NCBI GenBank assembly: GCA_017554385.1
Contig: JAFZIL010000075.1
Span: 1-46,207, forward strand
Source: Prevotella sp.
GTDB lineage: Bacteria > Bacteroidota > Bacteroidia > Bacteroidales > Bacteroidaceae
Length of the DNA: 46,207 bases
Reading direction: 5' to 3'
Shown here: one piece after another, positions 622 to 46,207 of the stretch
Numbering within the stretch: the first letter of the stretch is position 1
Layout: each line of letters starts with the position of its first letter
Translations under genes and position numbers: made by a program
The notes under the pieces: model-generated
What the model saw: only the letters and a program-made list of their open reading frames with translations
Databases searched by the model: none
Told to the model about the DNA's origin: nothing

Positions 622-731
622 CGTTACAAATACTCTGTGACACCGTCACGAATACTCCATTACATCGTTACAAATAGTCTGTAATGACGTTACAAATAGT
701 CTGTAAAACCATTACACATAGTCTGTAATCA
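622..731. repeat. Five tandem 22-bp units (iteron-like array)
   Basis: Units start at 622, 644, 666, 688 and 710 with an exact 22-bp step. The conserved core is CGTTACAAATAGTCTGTAA with a variable three-base end. Across unit junctions the ends form dyads, such as GTGACACCGTCAC at the first junction and GTAATGACGTTAC at the third. The dyads differ in sequence while largely keeping pairing. The array fills the gap between the DUF6078 stop and the VapE start almost completely, ending 15 bp before the ATG. Arrays of this length and period in front of replication genes are typical of plasmid iterons or initiator operators; that role here is inference. Confidence 0.85.
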
Positions 732-3948: not shown

Positions 3949-4812
3949 ATGAAACCAACCGCAATACTGCTTCTGCACTGTCCTGACCAACAGGGCATCA
4001 TCACAGAAGTAACCAAGTTTATTACCGACAACAAGGGCAACATCGTCTACCTGGACCAGTATGTGGACCGGCAGGACGGCATGTTCTTCATGCGTATTGA
4101 ATGGGAACTGGACGGCTTCCTGATTCCCCGCGAGAAAATCTACGAATACATCACGACGCTCTATGCCCAGCGTTACCAGATGAAGTTCTCGCTCTACTAT
4201 AGCGACAAGCGTCCACGCATGGCCATCTTCGTCTCGAAGATGAGCCATTGTCTCTACGACCTGCTGGCCCGCTGGAAGGCAGGAGAGTTTGCCTGCGACA
4301 TTCCGTGTATCGTGTCGAACCATGAGGATCTGCGCTATGTGGCCGAGCAGTTCGGCATTCCCTACTATGTGTGGAGCATCAAGAAGGACCACTCGAACAA
4401 GGCCGAGGTAGAAGCAGCCGAGATGGAGCTGCTGAAGAAGGAGGACATCTCGTTCATCGTGCTGGCACGCTACATGCAGATTATCAGCGACGAGATGATT
4501 GCCGAGTACCCCCACCACATCATCAACATCCACCACTCGTTCCTGCCTGCCTTCGTAGGAGCCAAGCCCTATCATCAAGCCTGGGAGCGCGGCGTGAAGA
4601 TTATCGGTGCTACGAGCCACTATGTGACGGCAGAGCTCGACGCAGGCCCCATCATCGAACAGGATGTGGCCCGCATCACGCATAAGGACACGCCCGAGAG
4701 TCTTGTGCTGAAGGGCAAGGACTTGGAGAAGATCGTGCTGTCAAGGGCTGTGGCCAAGCACATCGAGCGCAAGATACTCACGTTCAAGAACAAGACGATC
4801 ATTTTCAGTTGA
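3949..4812 (+). CDS. purU: Formyltetrahydrofolate deformylase
   Basis: A 287-residue cytosolic enzyme that hydrolyses 10-formyl-THF to formate and THF, balancing the one-carbon pool. An N-terminal ACT domain (about 1-85, starting LLLHCPDQQGIITEV) is followed by a formyltransferase-fold domain. The catalytic Asn-His-Asp set is visible as N193 and H195 (INIHHSFLPAF) and D231 (LDAGPIIEQD). The length matches the family. It lies directly ahead of four histidine-biosynthesis genes in the same direction. AICAR released by HisF/HisH feeds purine synthesis, which uses formyl-THF, so a metabolic link is plausible, but co-transcription is inferred only from spacing. Confidence 0.93.
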   Translation: MKPTAILLLHCPDQQGIITEVTKFITDNKGNIVYLDQYVDRQDGMFFMRIEWELDGFLIPREKIYEYITTLYAQRYQMKFSLYYSDKRPRMAIFVSKMSHCLYDLLARWKAGEFACDIPCIVSNHEDLRYVAEQFGIPYYVWSIKKDHSNKAEVEAAEMELLKKEDISFIVLARYMQIISDEMIAEYPHHIINIHHSFLPAFVGAKPYHQAWERGVKIIGATSHYVTAELDAGPIIEQDVARITHKDTPESLVLKGKDLEKIVLSRAVAKHIERKILTFKNKTIIFS

Positions 4813-11010: not shown

Positions 11011-12036
11011 ATGAACAAACATCAAGCAAAGTATTATCTCATACCCGCAGCTGCCTGTCTGATAGGGCTTCTCTTTCTGGTATTCTATTATACTTGTACC
11101 GCTTTTTCGGCAAAAACCGAAACAGAATACGTGTATATCGATGATGACGACAATGCTGACTCGGTATTTGTCAAGCTCAGCCCAATAGCATCGTCACACG
11201 GCATCACCGGACTGCGCACGCTCATACGCCACTGCGACTATCATGAGAAAGTGCATAGTGGCCGTTATGCCATTGAGCCCGACTTGCGTATCGTCAGTCT
11301 TTTCCGCAAGCTGAAGAACGGTCAGCAGTCGCCGCTCATGCTTACGATACCCGAGAGTCGCACCATACCCCGACTTGCCGCCATATTAGGCAAGAAACTG
11401 ATGATTGACAGCACGGCAATAGCCCAGGCGCTGACCGACAGCATCTACTGCAACAAGCTGGGTTACGATGTATACTCCATCCCCGCGATGTTCGTACCAA
11501 ACACCTACGAGGTCTACTGGAACATCTCTGTTGACCAGCTGATGGAACGACTGAAGAGCGAACATGACGTTTTCTGGAACAAAAGCCGTCGACAGAAGGC
11601 CAATGCACTTGGGCTGACACCTGAAGAAGTGTGTACCGTTGCCAGCATTATCGATGAAGAAACGGCCAACACGGAAGAGAAGCCTATGATTGCAGGCATG
11701 TACCTGAACCGCCTCAAGGAAGGAATGCCCCTACAGGCCGACCCTACCGTGAAATTTGCCATTGGCGACTTCTCCATACGCCGCATCTACAAGAACATGC
11801 TTGACACCGATAGTCCTTACAACACTTACAGGAACGAAGGACTGCCACCAGGTCCCATCAAGATTGCCTCGGTGAAGGGCATCGATGCCGTGCTGAACCG
11901 TGTTCCCCACGACTATCTGTATATGTGCGCCAAGGAAGATTTCTCCGGCACCCATAATTTCGCACGCACCTATTCCGAACATCTTGCCAATGCCGCACGC
12001 TATGCCAAGGCATTGAACGAGCGGGGAATCAAATAA
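11011..12036 (+). CDS. mltG: Endolytic murein transglycosylase MltG (YceG family)
   Basis: A 341-residue inner-membrane protein with one N-terminal membrane helix (about residues 9-33) and a periplasmic YceG domain. The active-site region is VASIIDEET (210-218), followed by NRLKEGMPLQADPTVKFA and the conserved YNTYRNEGLPPGPI. The enzyme cleaves nascent glycan strands and is thought to set strand length during peptidoglycan growth. Size and motifs are standard. Confidence 0.93.
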   Translation: MNKHQAKYYLIPAAACLIGLLFLVFYYTCTAFSAKTETEYVYIDDDDNADSVFVKLSPIASSHGITGLRTLIRHCDYHEKVHSGRYAIEPDLRIVSLFRKLKNGQQSPLMLTIPESRTIPRLAAILGKKLMIDSTAIAQALTDSIYCNKLGYDVYSIPAMFVPNTYEVYWNISVDQLMERLKSEHDVFWNKSRRQKANALGLTPEEVCTVASIIDEETANTEEKPMIAGMYLNRLKEGMPLQADPTVKFAIGDFSIRRIYKNMLDTDSPYNTYRNEGLPPGPIKIASVKGIDAVLNRVPHDYLYMCAKEDFSGTHNFARTYSEHLANAARYAKALNERGIK

Positions 12037-12066: not shown

Positions 12067-13521
12067 ATGAATGCCGCAGCTGTTGTCCTTACTACTGTCA
12101 TCATCTATCTTCTGATACTGTTTTCCATCAGTCGATGGACAACGTCAAGGCATTCGACAAACGACACGTTCTTTCGTGGGAACAGGCGTTCTCCCTGGGC
12201 CTTGGTAGCATTCGGCATGATAGGAGCCTCTGTCTCAGGGGTGACTTTCGTGAGCGTACCGGGTATGGTTCTCACCTCATCGATGACCTACCTGCAAGTA
12301 TGTATAGGCTTTATCCTGGGCTACATAGCAGTAGCATTTATCTTGCTGCCCGTCTACTATCAGCTGAACCTGACGACCATCTACACCTATCTTGGCCATC
12401 GCTTCGGACAGAGTTCCTACAAGACGGGCTCTACTTTCTTCCTCTTTTCCAAGTTAGTAGGAGCGTCAGTGAAGTTCTATGTGGTCTGTATCATTCTACA
12501 GCAATTCGTCCTAAGTGCCCTTGGCGTTCCATTCCCCGTAACCGTTGCCGCTATGGTCCTGCTCATCTGGATTTACACACGGCGTGGCGGCATAGGCACT
12601 TTGGTCTTTACCGATACATTCCAGACCATCTGTCTCTTCGCTGCCCTGCTGTTGATAATATGGCAGGCCATAGACACGATGGGACTGTCACTGAACGAAG
12701 CCATCGACAAGATTGCATCCGACGAGCGGAGTCAGGTGTTTGTATGGGACAACTGGAAGAGTCCTCGCTATTTCTGGAAACAGCTGCTTAGCGGTGCATT
12801 CATTGTGATTGTGATGACGGGGCTCGATCAGGACATGATGCAAAAGAACCTGACCTGCCGCACCCTCAAGGACGCACAGAAGAACATGTGTACCTACGGC
12901 GTGGCTTTCCTACCAGCGAACCTGTTGTTCCTGGCCCTTGGCATCCTGCTGGCGCAATGGTACACAGGAGTATATGGAGTCAGCACGCTACCCGAAGGCG
13001 ATCAGTTGCTGCCTGCTTTTGTAGCCCAGCAAGGGCTCCCCGTTCTGCTGCTCTTCACGATTGGCATCATGGCAGCCTCGTTCTCAAGTGCCGACTCCGC
13101 CCTCACATCGCTGACCACAAGCTTTTGTGTAGACATCTGTCAGGATTCGGACAATGAGAAGCTACGCAAACAGGTCCATCTATCTATATGCCTGCTCTTT
13201 GCCCTGGTCATCCTTACTATCCATGCTCTGAACAACCAAAGTCTTATAGACACCATCTACCTCATCGTTTCCTATACCTATGGTCCGCTACTCGGGCTCT
13301 TTGCTTTCGGGCTGTTCACTAAGAAGCCTGTTACCGACCGTCTCGTTCCCTATATCTGCCTGCTGTCACCATTCCTCTGCTACGCCATTGACTGGCTATG
13401 CCAACGACAGTTCAACTACCATTTCGGCTACGAGCTGCTGATGCTTAATGGTCTGTTGACATTTCTCGGATTATGGCTGATAAGGGGAAAGCGAAGCGAA
13501 AACAAAATAAATGAGCGTTAA
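12067..13521 (+). CDS. Sodium:solute symporter (SSS family)
   Basis: A 484-residue polytopic membrane protein with about 13 predicted helices. SSS-family marks include the N-terminal FGMIGASVSGVTFVSVPG region, TRRGGIGTLVFTDTFQ, and MAASFSSADSALTSLTTSF, the sodium-site helix. The transported solute cannot be read from the sequence. It lies 30 bp after mltG and may be co-transcribed. A separate promoter follows it, so the next gene is independent. Confidence 0.88.
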   Translation: MNAAAVVLTTVIIYLLILFSISRWTTSRHSTNDTFFRGNRRSPWALVAFGMIGASVSGVTFVSVPGMVLTSSMTYLQVCIGFILGYIAVAFILLPVYYQLNLTTIYTYLGHRFGQSSYKTGSTFFLFSKLVGASVKFYVVCIILQQFVLSALGVPFPVTVAAMVLLIWIYTRRGGIGTLVFTDTFQTICLFAALLLIIWQAIDTMGLSLNEAIDKIASDERSQVFVWDNWKSPRYFWKQLLSGAFIVIVMTGLDQDMMQKNLTCRTLKDAQKNMCTYGVAFLPANLLFLALGILLAQWYTGVYGVSTLPEGDQLLPAFVAQQGLPVLLLFTIGIMAASFSSADSALTSLTTSFCVDICQDSDNEKLRKQVHLSICLLFALVILTIHALNNQSLIDTIYLIVSYTYGPLLGLFAFGLFTKKPVTDRLVPYICLLSPFLCYAIDWLCQRQFNYHFGYELLMLNGLLTFLGLWLIRGKRSENKINER

Positions 13522-42439: not shown

Positions 42440-43726
42440 ATGGAGCGTCTTTGGAACAGCAACTATTTGAAGGTGATGGCAGCGAACTTCTCGCTGTTCT
42501 TCGCCTTCTATGTTTTGTCACCCCTGCTTCCGCTTTATCTCAGTGAGACGTTCCATGCCACAAAGGACGTCATCGGCCTGATACTCTCTGGCTATACCAT
42601 CACCACCCTGCTCGTACGCCCTTTCAGTGGCTACATCGTCGACACCTTCAACCGTAAGACCGTGCTGATGGTCTGCTTTGCAGCCTTCTCCATTTTCTTT
42701 GCCGGATACTTGGCAGCTTCCACCTTATTATTATTTACGATAGTGCGCACACTTCACGGCGGACCTTTCGGGGCACTGACGGTGGCCAACTCTACCGTGG
42801 CCATCGATGTGCTGCCAGCCTCGCGCCGCAATGAAGGCATAGGCTATTACGGTCTGAGCAACAACCTGGCCATGGCCATCGCACCTACCGTTGGCATTTT
42901 CCTGTATCATCAGACCCACAGCTTCGAACTGCTCTTCTGGGTAGCCTTCATCGTGGCTACTGCCGGCCTCCTCGTCGATGCCACCGTAAAACTGAACAAA
43001 AGCGCAACATGTAGAGTGGATAAAAAAAAGATTGCTACCGCTCCACAGGACAACTCTGGCGCGGTAGCAAACGCTAAACTCTATACTATACACTCTAAAC
43101 TAAGCCTCGACCGTTTCTTTCTATTGCGCGGCTGGCTCTTGGCAGTCAACATGGTGTTCTTCGGCTTCTGCTTCGGCGTACTGAGCAACTACTTGGCCAT
43201 CTACAGCAAAGAGCAATTAGGCTTTACCGGCGGCACCGGCACTTATTTCCTGCTATGCAGCGTAGGACTCATTCTCTCGCGGTTGCAAGGCAGCAAGTCG
43301 CTGCGCCAAGGCCGTCTGACTCATCATGCTGGTATCGGCATGCTTATATCGCTCGTAGGCTATACCATTTTCATTCTCGCTCCGACGCTCGACAGTCTTA
43401 CCCCGATGTCCTCACCTTTGCTCATCACTGTGGGCTACTATGGCTCTGCCCTGCTCATCGGCTTAGGCAATGGCCATCTGTGGCCCGCCTTCCAGAACAT
43501 GATGATAGCCATGGCCCACCACAATGAACGAGGCACTGCCAATTCCACCATCCTCATCTCCTGGGATATTGGCATGGGATTGGGGATTCTCGCAGGTGGC
43601 ATCATTGCCGAACACCTGGGCTATGCTGCCGCTTTCTGGTGCGTAGCAATAGTCAATGCAGTCGGCGTTGCCCTGTTTTTCAACAGGACAAGCCGCTTCT
43701 ACACCATTAGTAACTGCGGGCAATGA
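42440..43726 (+). CDS. Major facilitator superfamily transporter
   Basis: A 428-residue, 12-helix transporter. The first half has [28 protein letters not shown], the MFS loop-2 motif. The substrate is unknown; sequence style resembles drug or sugar efflux types. The central cytoplasmic loop (about 185-222) carries an unusual stretch encoded by an A-run, a 10-bp inverted repeat and a 7-bp-period run. Translation is probably coupled to pheS (2-bp gap). Its 3' end overlaps the convergent proS by 20 bp. Confidence 0.88.
43032..43070. repeat. 10-bp inverted repeat inside the MFS gene
   Basis: TTGCTACCGC (43032-43041) and GCGGTAGCAA (43061-43070) are perfect arms with a 19-bp spacer. The pair lies in the central-loop coding segment, immediately ahead of a 7-bp-period run. 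Confidence 0.75.
43074..43101. repeat. Heptad repeat run inside the MFS gene
   Basis: Units CTAAACT, CTATACT, ATACACT and CTAAACT encode residues about 212-221 of the central cytoplasmic loop. Confidence 0.75.
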
Positions 43727-45188
43727 TGACACGGGCCTTCGACGGCTTGCCGCTCACCATGTCGGTGCCAGGTGTCTGCTCTACGCCGAAAGGCACACAA
43801 CGTATCGTGGCCTGTGTTTCTTCCTTGATCTGAGCCTCGGTCTCGGCTGTGCCGTCCCAGTGGCAGAGGAAGAAACCGCCATCCTTGATGCGCTCCTTGA
43901 ACTCCTCGTAGTTATCGCACTCGTAGATACGCTCATCGCGATATTTGCGGGCCTTCTTGAAAATATTCTTCTGAATGTCGTCGAGCAACTGCTCCACATA
44001 TTCTACGATGCCTTCCAACGGACGGGTTTCCTTTTCCAACGTGTCGCGACGCATCACCTCGATGGTTCCGTTCTCCAAGTCGCGTGCACCAAGCACTAAT
44101 CTCACGGGCACACCCTTCAGCTCGTAGTCGGCAAACTTAAAGCCTGGACGCTTATTGTCAGCATCGTCGAACTTCACGGTGATGCCCTTCTTACGAAGCT
44201 GTTCGATGATGGGCGTCACCTCCTTGTTTACCAGTTCCATCTGCTCGGGCTTGGTGGCAATGGGGATGATGACCACCTGGATGGGGGCAAGACGCGGGGG
44301 CAACACCAGACCGTTGTCGTCAGAGTGGGTCATAATAAGAGCACCGATGAGACGGGTTGAGACACCCCACGAAGTAGCCCAGACATATTCGGGCTTGTTC
44401 TCCTTATTTAGATAGGTCACATCGAATGCCTTGGCAAAGTTCTGACCCAGGAAATGCGAGGTGCCGCTCTGGAGAGCCTTTCCGTCCTGCATCATGGCTT
44501 CGATAGTGTAAGTGTCAAGCGCACCGGCAAAACGCTCGGTCTCGCTCTTCACGCCCTGCACAACCGGCACGGCCATCCATTCCTCGGCAAACGTTGCATA
44601 GACCTTCAGCATCTGCTGTGCTTCGGCTTCGGCTTCCTCGCGTGTAGCATGGGCAGTATGTCCTTCCTGCCAGAGGAATTCCGAAGTACGCAGGAACGGA
44701 CGTGTACGCATCTCCCAGCGCATCACATTGCACCACTGATTACACATCAAGGGCAGATCGCGCCACGAGTGGATCCAGTTCTTATAGGTGTTCCAGATAA
44801 TCGTCTCCGAGGTAGGACGGATAATCAGCTCTTCCTCGAGCTTAGCAGCGGGATCAACAACGACGCCGCTCTTATCCTCCGTAGCCTTCAGACGGTAGTG
44901 GGTCACCACGGCACACTCCTTGGCGAAACCCTCCACATGCTCGGCTTCCTTAGAGAGGAACGACTTTGGGATAAGCAGGGGGAAATAGGCGTTCTGTGCA
45001 CCCGTCTCCTTGAACATCTTGTCTAATTGCTGCTGCATCTTCTCCCAGATGGCATAGCCATAGGGCTTAATGACCATACATCCGCGCACAGCCGACTGTT
45101 CGGCCAAATCTGCCTTCACTACGAGGTCGTTGAACCATTGAGAATAGTTCTCGGCATGTTTTGTCAAATCTTTCAGTTCTTTTGCCAT
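43707..45188 (-). CDS. proS: Prolyl-tRNA synthetase (short, archaeal/eukaryote-like type)
   Basis: A 493-residue class II synthetase. Motif 2 ([26 protein letters not shown]) and the C-terminal extension (ending IIARSY) match the short ProRS type that lacks the INS editing domain and is usual in Bacteroidetes. The conserved [16 protein letters not shown] precedes motif 2. It is transcribed alone, with a -7 box at 45234-45241 on its strand, and overlaps the end of the MFS gene. Confidence 0.96.
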
Positions 45189-45233
45189 ATTACTTTATAT
45201 TGCTTTTAATGTTCTCTTTCTGCAATTCGGGTG

Positions 45234-45241
45234 CAAAGGTA
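45234..45241 (-). promoter_or_regulatory. -7 box of proS
   Basis: Read on the - strand this is TACCTTTG, matching TAnnTTTG, 46 bp upstream of the proS ATG. No clear -33 element was found. Confidence 0.55.
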
Positions 45242-45333
45242 ATGAAAAAAAACGAAAATCCTACATTCACGGCAAAGAAATCGAAAGTATTTTGTTTTCC
45301 TTGTATTCTTAAGGTCTGCCTTGGTGTGAAAAC

Positions 45334-45421
45334 ATACTGTTTGACATCGTCAAAGATACTGCTTGGCATCATCAAAGATACTGTTTGACATTGTCAAAGA
45401 TACTGCTTGACACCCAAAAAG
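45334..45421. repeat. 22-bp tandem array, flavour A (four units)
   Basis: Units start at 45334, 45356, 45378 and 45400. Units 1 and 3 carry the dyad TTTGACATCGTCAAA or TTTGACATTGTCAAA plus the linker GATACTG. Unit 2 is a partly paired variant, and unit 4 has lost its right arm. The step is exactly 22 bp. Confidence 0.85.
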
Positions 45422-45465
45422 AGACCTATTCTCGTAGCAAGCGAGAACTATTCTCGTAGAAACGC
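45422..45465. repeat. 22-bp tandem array, flavour B (two units)
   Basis: CTATTCTCGTAG occurs at 45426 and 45448, again 22 bp apart and directly continuing flavour A. The first copy carries the dyad TTCTCG/CGAGAA. Confidence 0.7.
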
Positions 45466-45500
45466 TACACCGCAAGCTTGTAGGAACAGCACCGTTGAGC

Positions 45501-45567
45501 TCGCAAACAGCCCCTGTCAAGGCTACTGACAGCCCCTGTTAGACCTTCTGACAGGGGCTGTTTGCGA
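45501..45567. repeat. 19-bp perfect inverted repeat
   Basis: TCGCAAACAGCCCCTGTCA (45501-45519) is the exact reverse complement of 45549-45567, separated by 29 bp that hold another CAGCCCCTGT. It would form a strong hairpin in RNA or a cruciform in DNA. It has no T-run and is not a usual terminator. Confidence 0.85.
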
Positions 45568-45595
45568 CCCAATCAGCCCCTGTTTACAAGCTTGT
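45508..45595. repeat. 22-bp tandem array, flavour C (four units)
   Basis: CAGCCCCTGT occurs at 45508, 45530 and 45574, and the near-reverse form CAGGGGCTGT at 45552, all on an exact 22-bp step. A degenerate CAGCACCGTT at 45487 may be an older unit. The frame of the step is within two bases of that of flavour A, so the whole stretch behaves as one 22-bp-period tract. Confidence 0.8.
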
Positions 45596-45616
45596 TTGGG
45601 TCATTGGTGGGAAAGA

Positions 45617-45649
45617 GGGGGCACGTAGGGGGCACGTAGGGGGCGCGTT
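45617..45649. repeat. Three 11-bp G-rich tandem units
   Basis: GGGGGCACGTA twice, then GGGGGCGCGTT. A complementary GTGCCCCC at 45662-45669 could pair with it. The 11-bp step is half the 22-bp period just upstream. Confidence 0.75.
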
Positions 45650-45727
45650 TTTAGGCAAGATGTGCCCCCCGCAAATGCCCATATACAAAGGGAAAACAAG
45701 CAAAAGGGGCACGAGGGCACCTTTTTT

Positions 45728-45735
45728 TATTTTTG
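45728..45735 (+). promoter_or_regulatory. -7 box before the small membrane-protein gene
   Basis: TATTTTTG fits TAnnTTTG. It ends 7 bp before the GTG at 45743, suggesting a leaderless or nearly leaderless transcript. No -33 TTTG was found. Confidence 0.45.
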
Positions 45736-45742
45736 CCCGTAG

Positions 45743-45949
45743 GTGAGACTGCAAAAGAAGTCAAAGCCATCGTACCATTTTTTGGACAAGGTGGCGCTGG
45801 TAGTCTTTACTGTTCTCGGCTATTACACCAGGAAACAACATATGGACGACGATCTGGTCTTCCTCTGGTTGCTGGCTGGCATGCCCGTTCTTATCGTGTC
45901 GGTGATTTGGGGCATCAATGAACTGATGGCTTGGATGAACGGGAAATAG
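45743..45949 (+). CDS. Small two-helix membrane protein, unknown function
   Basis: A 68-residue protein from a GTG start. A basic N-terminus is followed by two hydrophobic segments (about 16-29 and 38-62) separated by a short charged turn KQHMDDD, and it ends in a lysine. No family is recognised. If translation began instead at the ATG in the turn, only the second helix would remain. It lies just downstream of the 22-bp repeat tract and upstream of a long inverted repeat. Confidence 0.55.
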   Translation: MRLQKKSKPSYHFLDKVALVVFTVLGYYTRKQHMDDDLVFLWLLAGMPVLIVSVIWGINELMAWMNGK

Positions 45950-45985
45950 CAGAAAAAAGGTCGAAAATAGATAAAAACAGTATGT

Positions 45986-46032
45986 AAAGTGTCGCCAAAG
46001 TTGTTAAAAATCACAAACTTTGGCGACACTTT
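45986..46032. repeat. 17-bp perfect inverted repeat
   Basis: AAAGTGTCGCCAAAGTT (45986-46002) is mirrored by AACTTTGGCGACACTTT (46016-46032) with a 13-bp spacer. The right arm ends 13 bp before a -7 box. It could be an operator of the downstream gene, a terminator for the membrane-protein gene, or an element end. Confidence 0.85.
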
Positions 46033-46045
46033 GAAAATAATATTC

Positions 46046-46053
46046 TAACTTTG
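46046..46053 (+). promoter_or_regulatory. -7 box near the right edge
   Basis: TAACTTTG is an exact TAnnTTTG. A TTTG inside the right arm of the 17-bp inverted repeat (46019-46022) lies 23 bp upstream, slightly long for -33. Confidence 0.55.
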
Positions 46054-46069
46054 CAGAAAAATTCATCAC

Positions 46070-46156
46070 ATGGATAAAATAATAGGAAAACACCAGGTAC
46101 AACATACAAACGGTGTTGATAACGACATGGGGCATGAAGGAAAACCTGCACAGTGA
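46070..46156 (+). CDS. 28-codon ORF behind the edge promoter
   Basis: The first ATG after the -7 box (16 bp downstream) opens a 28-residue frame that stops at TGA. The peptide is polar and rich in histidine and glycine, with no recognised family. It may be a leader peptide, a non-coding leader, or the front of a gene that continues in the overlapping frame after a frameshift. Confidence 0.25.
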   Translation: MDKIIGKHQVQHTNGVDNDMGHEGKPAQ

Positions 46157-46207
46157 TGAATTCCAGAAAGTATTGACAATGAATGATTTATTCGTTGAGA
46201 ATACCGA
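46134..46207 (+). CDS. Possible partial gene cut by the window edge
   Basis: ATG at 46134 opens MKENLHSDEFQKVLTMNDLF and runs to the window end without a stop. The frame is open from 46086. An ATG at 46179 in the same frame is a later option. I do not recognise the family from 24 residues. Confidence 0.3.
   Translation, partial: MKENLHSDEFQKVLTMNDLFVENT

Follow-up and report, generated by a model that had tools for sequence, protein, structure and literature searches.

Minisatellites are tandem repeats with units of about 10-100 bp, and elements of the REP type differ in sequence between genomes. Plasmid iterons place their sites at steps of about 22 bp on one face of the helix but are direct repeats at one replication origin, in contrast to the arrays described here, which are palindromes at dozens of chromosomal places. 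Among the described systems of the order Bacteroidales, BrickBuilt is a MITE minisatellite of Porphyromonas gingivalis with 19 intergenic places in one strain and 23-nt tandem units, each with one conserved and one less conserved half; leader and tail segments adjoin the repeats (PMC4596501). That source reports matches from P. gingivalis and P. gulae only, and its mention of 22-nt tandem repeats in strain W83 comes without their places. REP, BIME and REPIN elements are short palindromes outside genes, clustered and with partners in differing orientation, and REP dimers are mostly 20-100 bp apart (PMC3733652, as far as accessible). The Lrp-type protein BarR binds semipalindromic 15-bp sites, several in a row, and like residues lie two helical turns apart in two homologues (PMC10201364, in part). 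Among the titles and abstracts screened from the open-licence literature, none dealt with 22-bp arrays in Prevotella; "Prevotella" and "22-bp direct repeat" both occur in the accessible text of PMC8102008.

We analysed a window of 46,207 nucleotides from Prevotella sp. (GCA_017554385.1, contig JAFZIL010000075.1, positions 1 to 46,207 of the forward strand), in which the following features were annotated.

622..728, no strand assigned: second array, built from family D cores TTACA-7-TGTAA at 22-bp steps (from TRF, dyads and lag-22 identity).
43707..45188, minus strand: proS (prolyl-tRNA synthetase), the neighbour gene, given for context only.
45189..45328, minus strand: spacer region 5' of proS, between the tract and the gene start.
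45329..45414, no strand assigned: flavour A, about four 22-bp units with the dyad TTTGACATCGTCAAA and GATACTG between (from TRF, dyads and a lag-22 identity of 0.79).
45417..45462, no strand assigned: flavour B, two complete cores GAGAACTATTCTC at a distance of 22 bp and, in addition, a weaker first half (from dyads, core positions and lag-22 identity).
45463..45499, no strand assigned: linker with a dyad (CTACACCGCAAGCTTGTAG), copies of which align at contigs C69 and C32.
45500..45602, no strand assigned: flavour C, four cores AACAG-CCC/GGG-CTGTT with steps of 22, 22 and 22 bp (from core positions and spacers).
45603..45736, plus strand: element E, a repeat about 130 bp long that is dispersed in the genome and contains three 11-bp repeats beginning GGGGGCAC.

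The closest named proS genes were from Prevotella and Prevotellaceae MAGs, many of rumen origin. The earlier note on this DNA knew of no named element with this build. Indeed, no sequence match to one was found, although BrickBuilt and the REP/BIME elements are close in kind. According to TRF, the arrays are made of head-to-tail units with one period, as bacterial minisatellites are. Like BrickBuilt, they occur in Bacteroidales, are intergenic and dispersed, and have tandem units of about two helical turns, whereas BrickBuilt has 23-nt units, a single sequence family, 0-6% indels within elements and IS5-family-like terminal repeats (PMC4596501). The steps seen here were 22 bp in 64/70, 17/17 and 12/12 cases, which sets the arrays apart from BrickBuilt by period and not by sequence comparison. 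A possible counterpart of its leader and tail segments is element E, which stands close to one side of an array in 9 of the 10 copies inspected; no shared pair of terminal repeats came to notice among them. As a dispersed cluster of palindromes, the tract is akin to a BIME. From REP and REPIN elements the arrays differ in their step, which is fixed at 22 bp and common to several unrelated families. By eye, no constant GTAG or CGTC tag at the palindrome foot was seen beside cores A-D in the arrays listed.

This genome, which is 81% complete, gave one Y1_Tnp match. The corresponding RAYT-like gene (L149:2262-3066) lies between hisC and hisD as judged by eye, and a C array is about 1.3 kb away with one gene between. 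Inverted copies of a different, GTAG-containing repeat flank the gene on both sides, and a similar repeat lies beside element E at L161. A RAYT/REP origin of the arrays was rejected, since the sole Y1_Tnp gene is flanked by its own GTAG-type repeat and not by these arrays. In Lrp-type arrays such as those of BarR, 15-bp palindromes at two-turn intervals can be accompanied by binding at multiple sites, and this is, by analogy, the model that we favour for the arrays, with a putative protein as the binder (PMC10201364, in part). In contrast to the Lrp case, the arrays here are not tied to one gene set, and Lrp sites as such were rejected, because two Lrp-family (PF01037) genes were found against at least five core families.

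The periodicity of the tract was quantified. Between 45329 and 45602, the identity at lag 22 was 0.58, compared with a mean of 0.25 (sd 0.03) in dinucleotide shuffles, and 0/1000 shuffles matched this score, whether at lag 22 itself or across lags 8-44. The 22-bp step that the earlier note had read in each flavour was thus borne out, with lag-22 identities of 0.79 for A, 0.83 for B and 0.58 for C. TRF reported A (45330-45412, period 22, 3.8 copies) and a part of C (45507-45554, 2.2 copies), and B was absent from its list for the window. The core centres of C read CCC, CCC, GGG and CCC in order, and the C part forms a long quasi-palindrome, with 45473-45594 matching itself on the other strand at 74%. 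Dyads had been ascribed to A and B, where they are present, but C has them too. They fall on an 11-bp grid in each flavour; this is not independent evidence, because a dyad in a period-22 array forces a second axis 11 bp off. The offset of this grid between flavours was 3 bp from A to B, and 3 and 5 bp for the others. The nearly common register claimed across the flavours is not preserved exactly, as it slips by 3, 3 and 5 bp between them. The tract had also been declared non-coding: we saw no convincing gene over it, but the argument that 22 is not a multiple of three is weak logic. A search of the window with Rfam at gathering thresholds gave no match, and ARAGORN found no tRNA in it. Near the contig end, a long inverted repeat (AAAGTGTCGCCAAAGTT..AACTTTGGCGACACTTT) was observed at 45986-46032.

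The second 22-bp locus of the window proved real as well, with 4.8 copies reported by TRF at 622-726 and a lag-22 identity of 0.76 at 622-728. The gene that follows this family D array downstream encodes BT4734-like and VapE-like domains. As a separate observation, the genes at 747-2879 of the window and at L047:11272-13359 both carry BT4734-like_N, VapE-like and DUF3874 domains, and 22-bp arrays (of families D and F) lie about 14-20 bp before their starts.

We then compared the conservation of spacing with that of sequence. Cores of families B, C and D were located by their arms alone in 55 sequences of this genome (14 of them chosen for holding matches), and distances between neighbouring cores 15-29 bp apart were counted on a single strand. 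For family C, 64/70 distances were exactly 22 bp, the others being 16, 20, 21, 21, 23 and 27; omission of the 10 distances contributed by flavour-A arrays, whose arms are C-like, left 54/60. All distances were 22 bp in family B (17/17) and in family D (12/12), the latter despite a core of 19 bp with a 3-bp gap. Across families, cores measured 15-19 bp and gaps 7 or 3 bp. Without the A arrays, family C comprised 25 arrays with 79 cores, and its 54 seven-base spacers had 44 distinct sequences. The middle five spacer positions carried 0.0 to 0.4 bits and consecutive spacers differed at 47% of sites (n=29), while the first and last base were conserved at about 1.4 bits, so that the true C core is about 17 bp. 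Neighbouring C cores differed at 22% of sites, centre flips counted. The CCC/GGG centre was flipped in 18/54 neighbouring pairs with the 22-bp phase retained: core orientation in family C flips and the phase is kept. Among the 17 spacers of family B there were 16 distinct sequences, and consecutive ones differed at 38% of sites (n=6); counted among the 11 B arrays are an array of a different family (L047) and another that falls within a predicted gene (L062). The 12 spacers of family D had 6 distinct sequences. Cores were rarely alone, as 23/34 strict C cores had another listed core within 120 bp, and a weaker core adjoined 9 of the remaining 11 by eye.

Recent head-to-tail copying would carry the spacers along, and their divergence therefore points to a constraint on distance, i.e. 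on helical phase. The exact distance combined with variable spacers favours a spacing constraint over recent copying in 22-bp steps. The claim that the period is conserved while the sequence changes is upheld by the exact step and the divergent spacers of B and C. Of the two causes that had been offered for it, selection on spacing is the better one (22 bp in 17/17 B, 64/70 C and 12/12 D distances). Copying in 22-bp steps is, as a recent event, not supported for B and C (spacer differences of 38% and 47%) but possible for homogeneous arrays such as A.

All flavours can be written, by eye, as an arm of 6, a gap of 7, an inverted arm of 6 and a gap of 3. We scanned 41 sequences of this genome (823,284 bp including the window) for any sequence with inverted 6-bp arms in this arrangement. 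Pairing with gaps of 7/3 at a minimum of 16/18 pairs was found at 18 intergenic and 3 coding places, these labels being approximate because genes were called crudely as the longest open frames. Gaps of 5/5 and 9/1 gave 11/1 and 6/1 intergenic/coding places, mostly the same arrays with the arms shifted, and spacings other than 22 (periods 16-36) gave at most 3 intergenic places each at the same cut. At a looser cut of 14/18 pairs with coding places included, 12/3 gaps (period 27) reached 40 places and a spacing of period 30 reached 39, against 39 for 7/3 (period 22); the contrast in favour of period 22 hence depends on the strict cut and on intergenic DNA. The scanned stretches were mostly from long contigs, and all contigs except C74 were chosen for a match to the A/B or C query, which biases array density upward and leaves the comparison between spacings unaffected. 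At least four further core families with a 22-bp step occur here, namely GGGACA/TGTCCC, AACGGA/TCCGTT, GGAAGTATTCC and AAGTATCATACTT. Thus, this genome holds several unrelated core families, mostly arrayed, nearly always 22 bp apart and with variable spacers. We also observed a palindromic family around GTCCGAACGGTTCGGAC with a step of 21 bp instead of 22 (L029:14933, L037:10157 and L055:14908). In addition, 11-bp direct repeats of the type TGTAGAGTTTA, half the usual step, adjoin 22-bp arrays at L065:11863-11985 and 12453-12506 and at L161 past 10285.

The flavours are dispersed in this genome. The A/B query gave 12 matches, with flavour A at 3 places besides the tract (85-92% identity), and the C query gave 38 matches at 25 places. 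Family B, searched with sequence combined from two loci, matched 12 times (11 places), and family D gave 9 matches at 8 places. A search of 99 further genomes, sampled evenly across the genus and scored at a limited number of candidate places in each, gave a match in 1 genome for the A/B query and in 0 for the C query. The single A/B match (G072) had 79% identity over 73 bases and lay inside a period-22 array. When the whole tract was compared with 60 related genomes, this one included, again at such candidate places, only this genome matched. These searches scored 8 to 11 candidate places per genome (8 to 14 over all genome searches), and weak matches elsewhere may be missed. The flavour words are nearly specific to this genome. 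The exact two-core C pattern was not found in viral contigs. The genome G072 owns a dispersed 22-bp family of its own, ATTCCCACCGGGGGAAT, seen in 3/5 sampled stretches (L182:12677, L184:16519 and L186:12995). Upstream of proS, none of the 20 inspected out of 80 named relatives showed such a tract by eye (420 bp each, 275 bp in L070). The proS upstream gap of Palleniella intestinalis (L091) has two 22-bp units with different words, a lone, suggestive example of one locus that holds a different vocabulary. In L091, 22-bp repeats with AAAG/CTTT words were seen at about 4570-4630, upstream of proS, and at 11380-11474, and like words occur in the L086 and L210 arrays.

We next asked how common period 22 is in other genomes, counting intergenic tandem repeats with TRF, one per place. 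This genome had 98 such places, 13 with period 22 and 5 with period 44; periods 20, 21 and 23 had 1, 10 and 1. Its period-21 repeats are mostly triple heptamers by eye, and three are the 21-bp palindromic family (L029, L037, L055). The sample of 24 further genomes from the genus (719 kb) had period 22 (24) or 44 (4) at 28/87 places, and the neighbouring periods 19, 20, 21, 23, 24 and 25 had 0, 1, 2, 0, 1 and 1. At least one period-22/44 repeat was present in 11/19 genus genomes sampled at 19 kb or more; several sampled contigs were tiny, e.g. 340 bases for G012. In 80 named proS regions (829 kb) there were 83 places, with 8 of period 22, 2 of period 44 and 10 of period 21. All 10 period-22/44 repeats fell in the 54 loci titled Prevotella, Prevotellaceae, Bacteroidaceae and similar (569 kb), and the other 26 loci (259 kb, split by title) had 0. 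Counts of period 22/44 were 2/25 in other families of the class (365 kb) and 0/4 in other classes of the phylum (345 kb), and 50 kb of E. coli, coding DNA included, gave one repeat only, of period 21. Period-22 arrays are thus real and widespread in the genus as far as sampled, and an excess of lag-22 periodicity beyond the two loci of the window, a check set out in the earlier note, was found both here (pairing scan) and in relatives (TRF). The units are mostly unrelated between species.

The core/spacer pattern did not extend in the same way. Self-complementarity at p<=0.05 was found in 8/38 period-22 consensus units from the two sets of relatives against 3/38 units of other periods, a test with little power, since in this genome it passes just 3/18 period-22 units against 2/19 others. 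Dyad chains at an 11-bp step occurred at 7 places in the named loci against 0-4 at other steps, a modest excess; in further genomes there were none in G016 and G045, 2 in G024 and 3 in G072. Clustering of variable positions (p 0.05) was seen in 1/19 arrays in relatives and in 2/9 here. Given these outcomes, the core/spacer pattern is demonstrated for this genome only, by pooling of arrays. The 6-7-6-3 dyad as a general rule was dropped, because many period-22 arrays elsewhere have no clear dyad or core/spacer split, and a palindromic core is no general feature of the arrays beyond this genome.

Our preferred explanation, held tentatively, places the tract with repeats of the REP/BIME/minisatellite type, as a group of dispersed non-coding palindromes in intergenic DNA, their cores phased at two helical turns, probably through a putative DNA-binding protein. 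The unit would be a palindromic core of about 15-19 bp with the next core two helical turns (22 bp) on. The cores would act at the level of DNA, and the step may persist because all cores have to lie on one face of the helix. A putative oligomeric protein would bind neighbouring sites together; it could be a nucleoid protein, resemble a repressor or be an unknown mobiliser of the repeats. The arrays would grow, shrink and spread within the genome, so that each species may end with its own vocabulary. Several points count against this explanation: the genome-specific words, which are odd for the sites of a conserved regulator, the 21-bp palindromic family here, the register slips between flavours and the strong RNA fold. 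Further points are the many arrays of relatives without a clear dyad, the rarity there of clustered variable positions, the modest excess of dyad chains and the levelling of periods at the looser cut, and the 23-bp arrays of G045 (L181) count against a simple rule. A broader version, which we consider doubtful, is a system common to the genus: DNA-binding proteins that evolve fast, or an enzyme with two-helical-turn steps, would build and maintain 22-bp-phased arrays, the vocabulary turning over between species and the phase being inherited.

Mutation alone could also produce such arrays. They would then be minisatellites expanding about two turns at a time, through slippage or hairpin-mediated template switching, with arms repaired against each other and neither function nor selection on spacing. 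Template switching would keep arms complementary as they change, and homogeneous arrays do exist (A at C25; L032 15567-15746, with 8.1 copies and 94% match), as do the many period-22 arrays of other species without a clear dyad. However, consecutive spacers of B and C differ at 38% and 47% of sites and yet keep an exact length, and period 22 in relatives (24 places) far exceeds periods 19, 20, 23 and 25 (0, 1, 0 and 1), which makes this explanation rather unlikely to our minds. Alternatively, the arrays might matter as RNA stem-loops alone, as bidirectional terminators, stabilisers of mRNA 3' ends or sponges. RNA from either strand of the tract has a very stable predicted fold (z -8.8 and -7.5), a necessary outcome for nested palindromes, and arrays in this genome mildly prefer convergent gaps (5/18 array-bearing gaps vs 24/184 overall; 1/18 vs 50/184 for divergent gaps). 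Relatives, in contrast, do not avoid divergent gaps (6/25 vs 52/262), and an orientation bias of the arrays was rejected as weak and inconsistent between genome sets. Selected RNA hairpins should give more G-U than A-C mismatches, but imperfect dyads in gaps between co-directional genes had 12 G-T (G-U) against 16 A-C on the transcribed strand, weak evidence for action at the DNA level. Moreover, an exact 22 bp would not be needed for cores of unequal length, and 45189-46207 has 2 terminator-like sites against 0.9 expected. We consider a role as RNA hairpins unlikely.

Another possibility is a composite MITE-like element made of arrays and element E, possibly with foldback ends, that a transposase would mobilise in trans, as with BrickBuilt, and in which the 22-bp step is inherited. 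Element E has 13 matches in this genome, one of just 44 bp, and by eye 9 of the 10 copies inspected have a 22-bp array on their left, at most about 100 bases off; the tenth (L161) instead adjoins a repeat similar to the one flanking the RAYT-like gene. At C69, A, B, linker and first C core recur in the same succession, and two copies of element E in inverted orientation flank the arrays there. Against this, the C query found 25 places and element E only 13 matches, so many arrays have no E, and neither a target-site duplication nor shared terminal repeats were demonstrated. By eye, no common downstream or neighbour gene was seen among the E copies. We judge a composite element to be quite improbable.

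On the practical side, the arrays may break assemblies, as copies of flavour A lie about 60 to 300 bases from contig ends at C43 and C25, and their use as strain markers is conceivable. If the spacing is selected, as the phasing explanation would have it, the arrays would form a natural set of sites with a conserved phase and an unconserved sequence, and their host genus is a common inhabitant of the rumen and gut; what sets the step, be it chromosome packing, gene insulation or a mobile element, would be testable.
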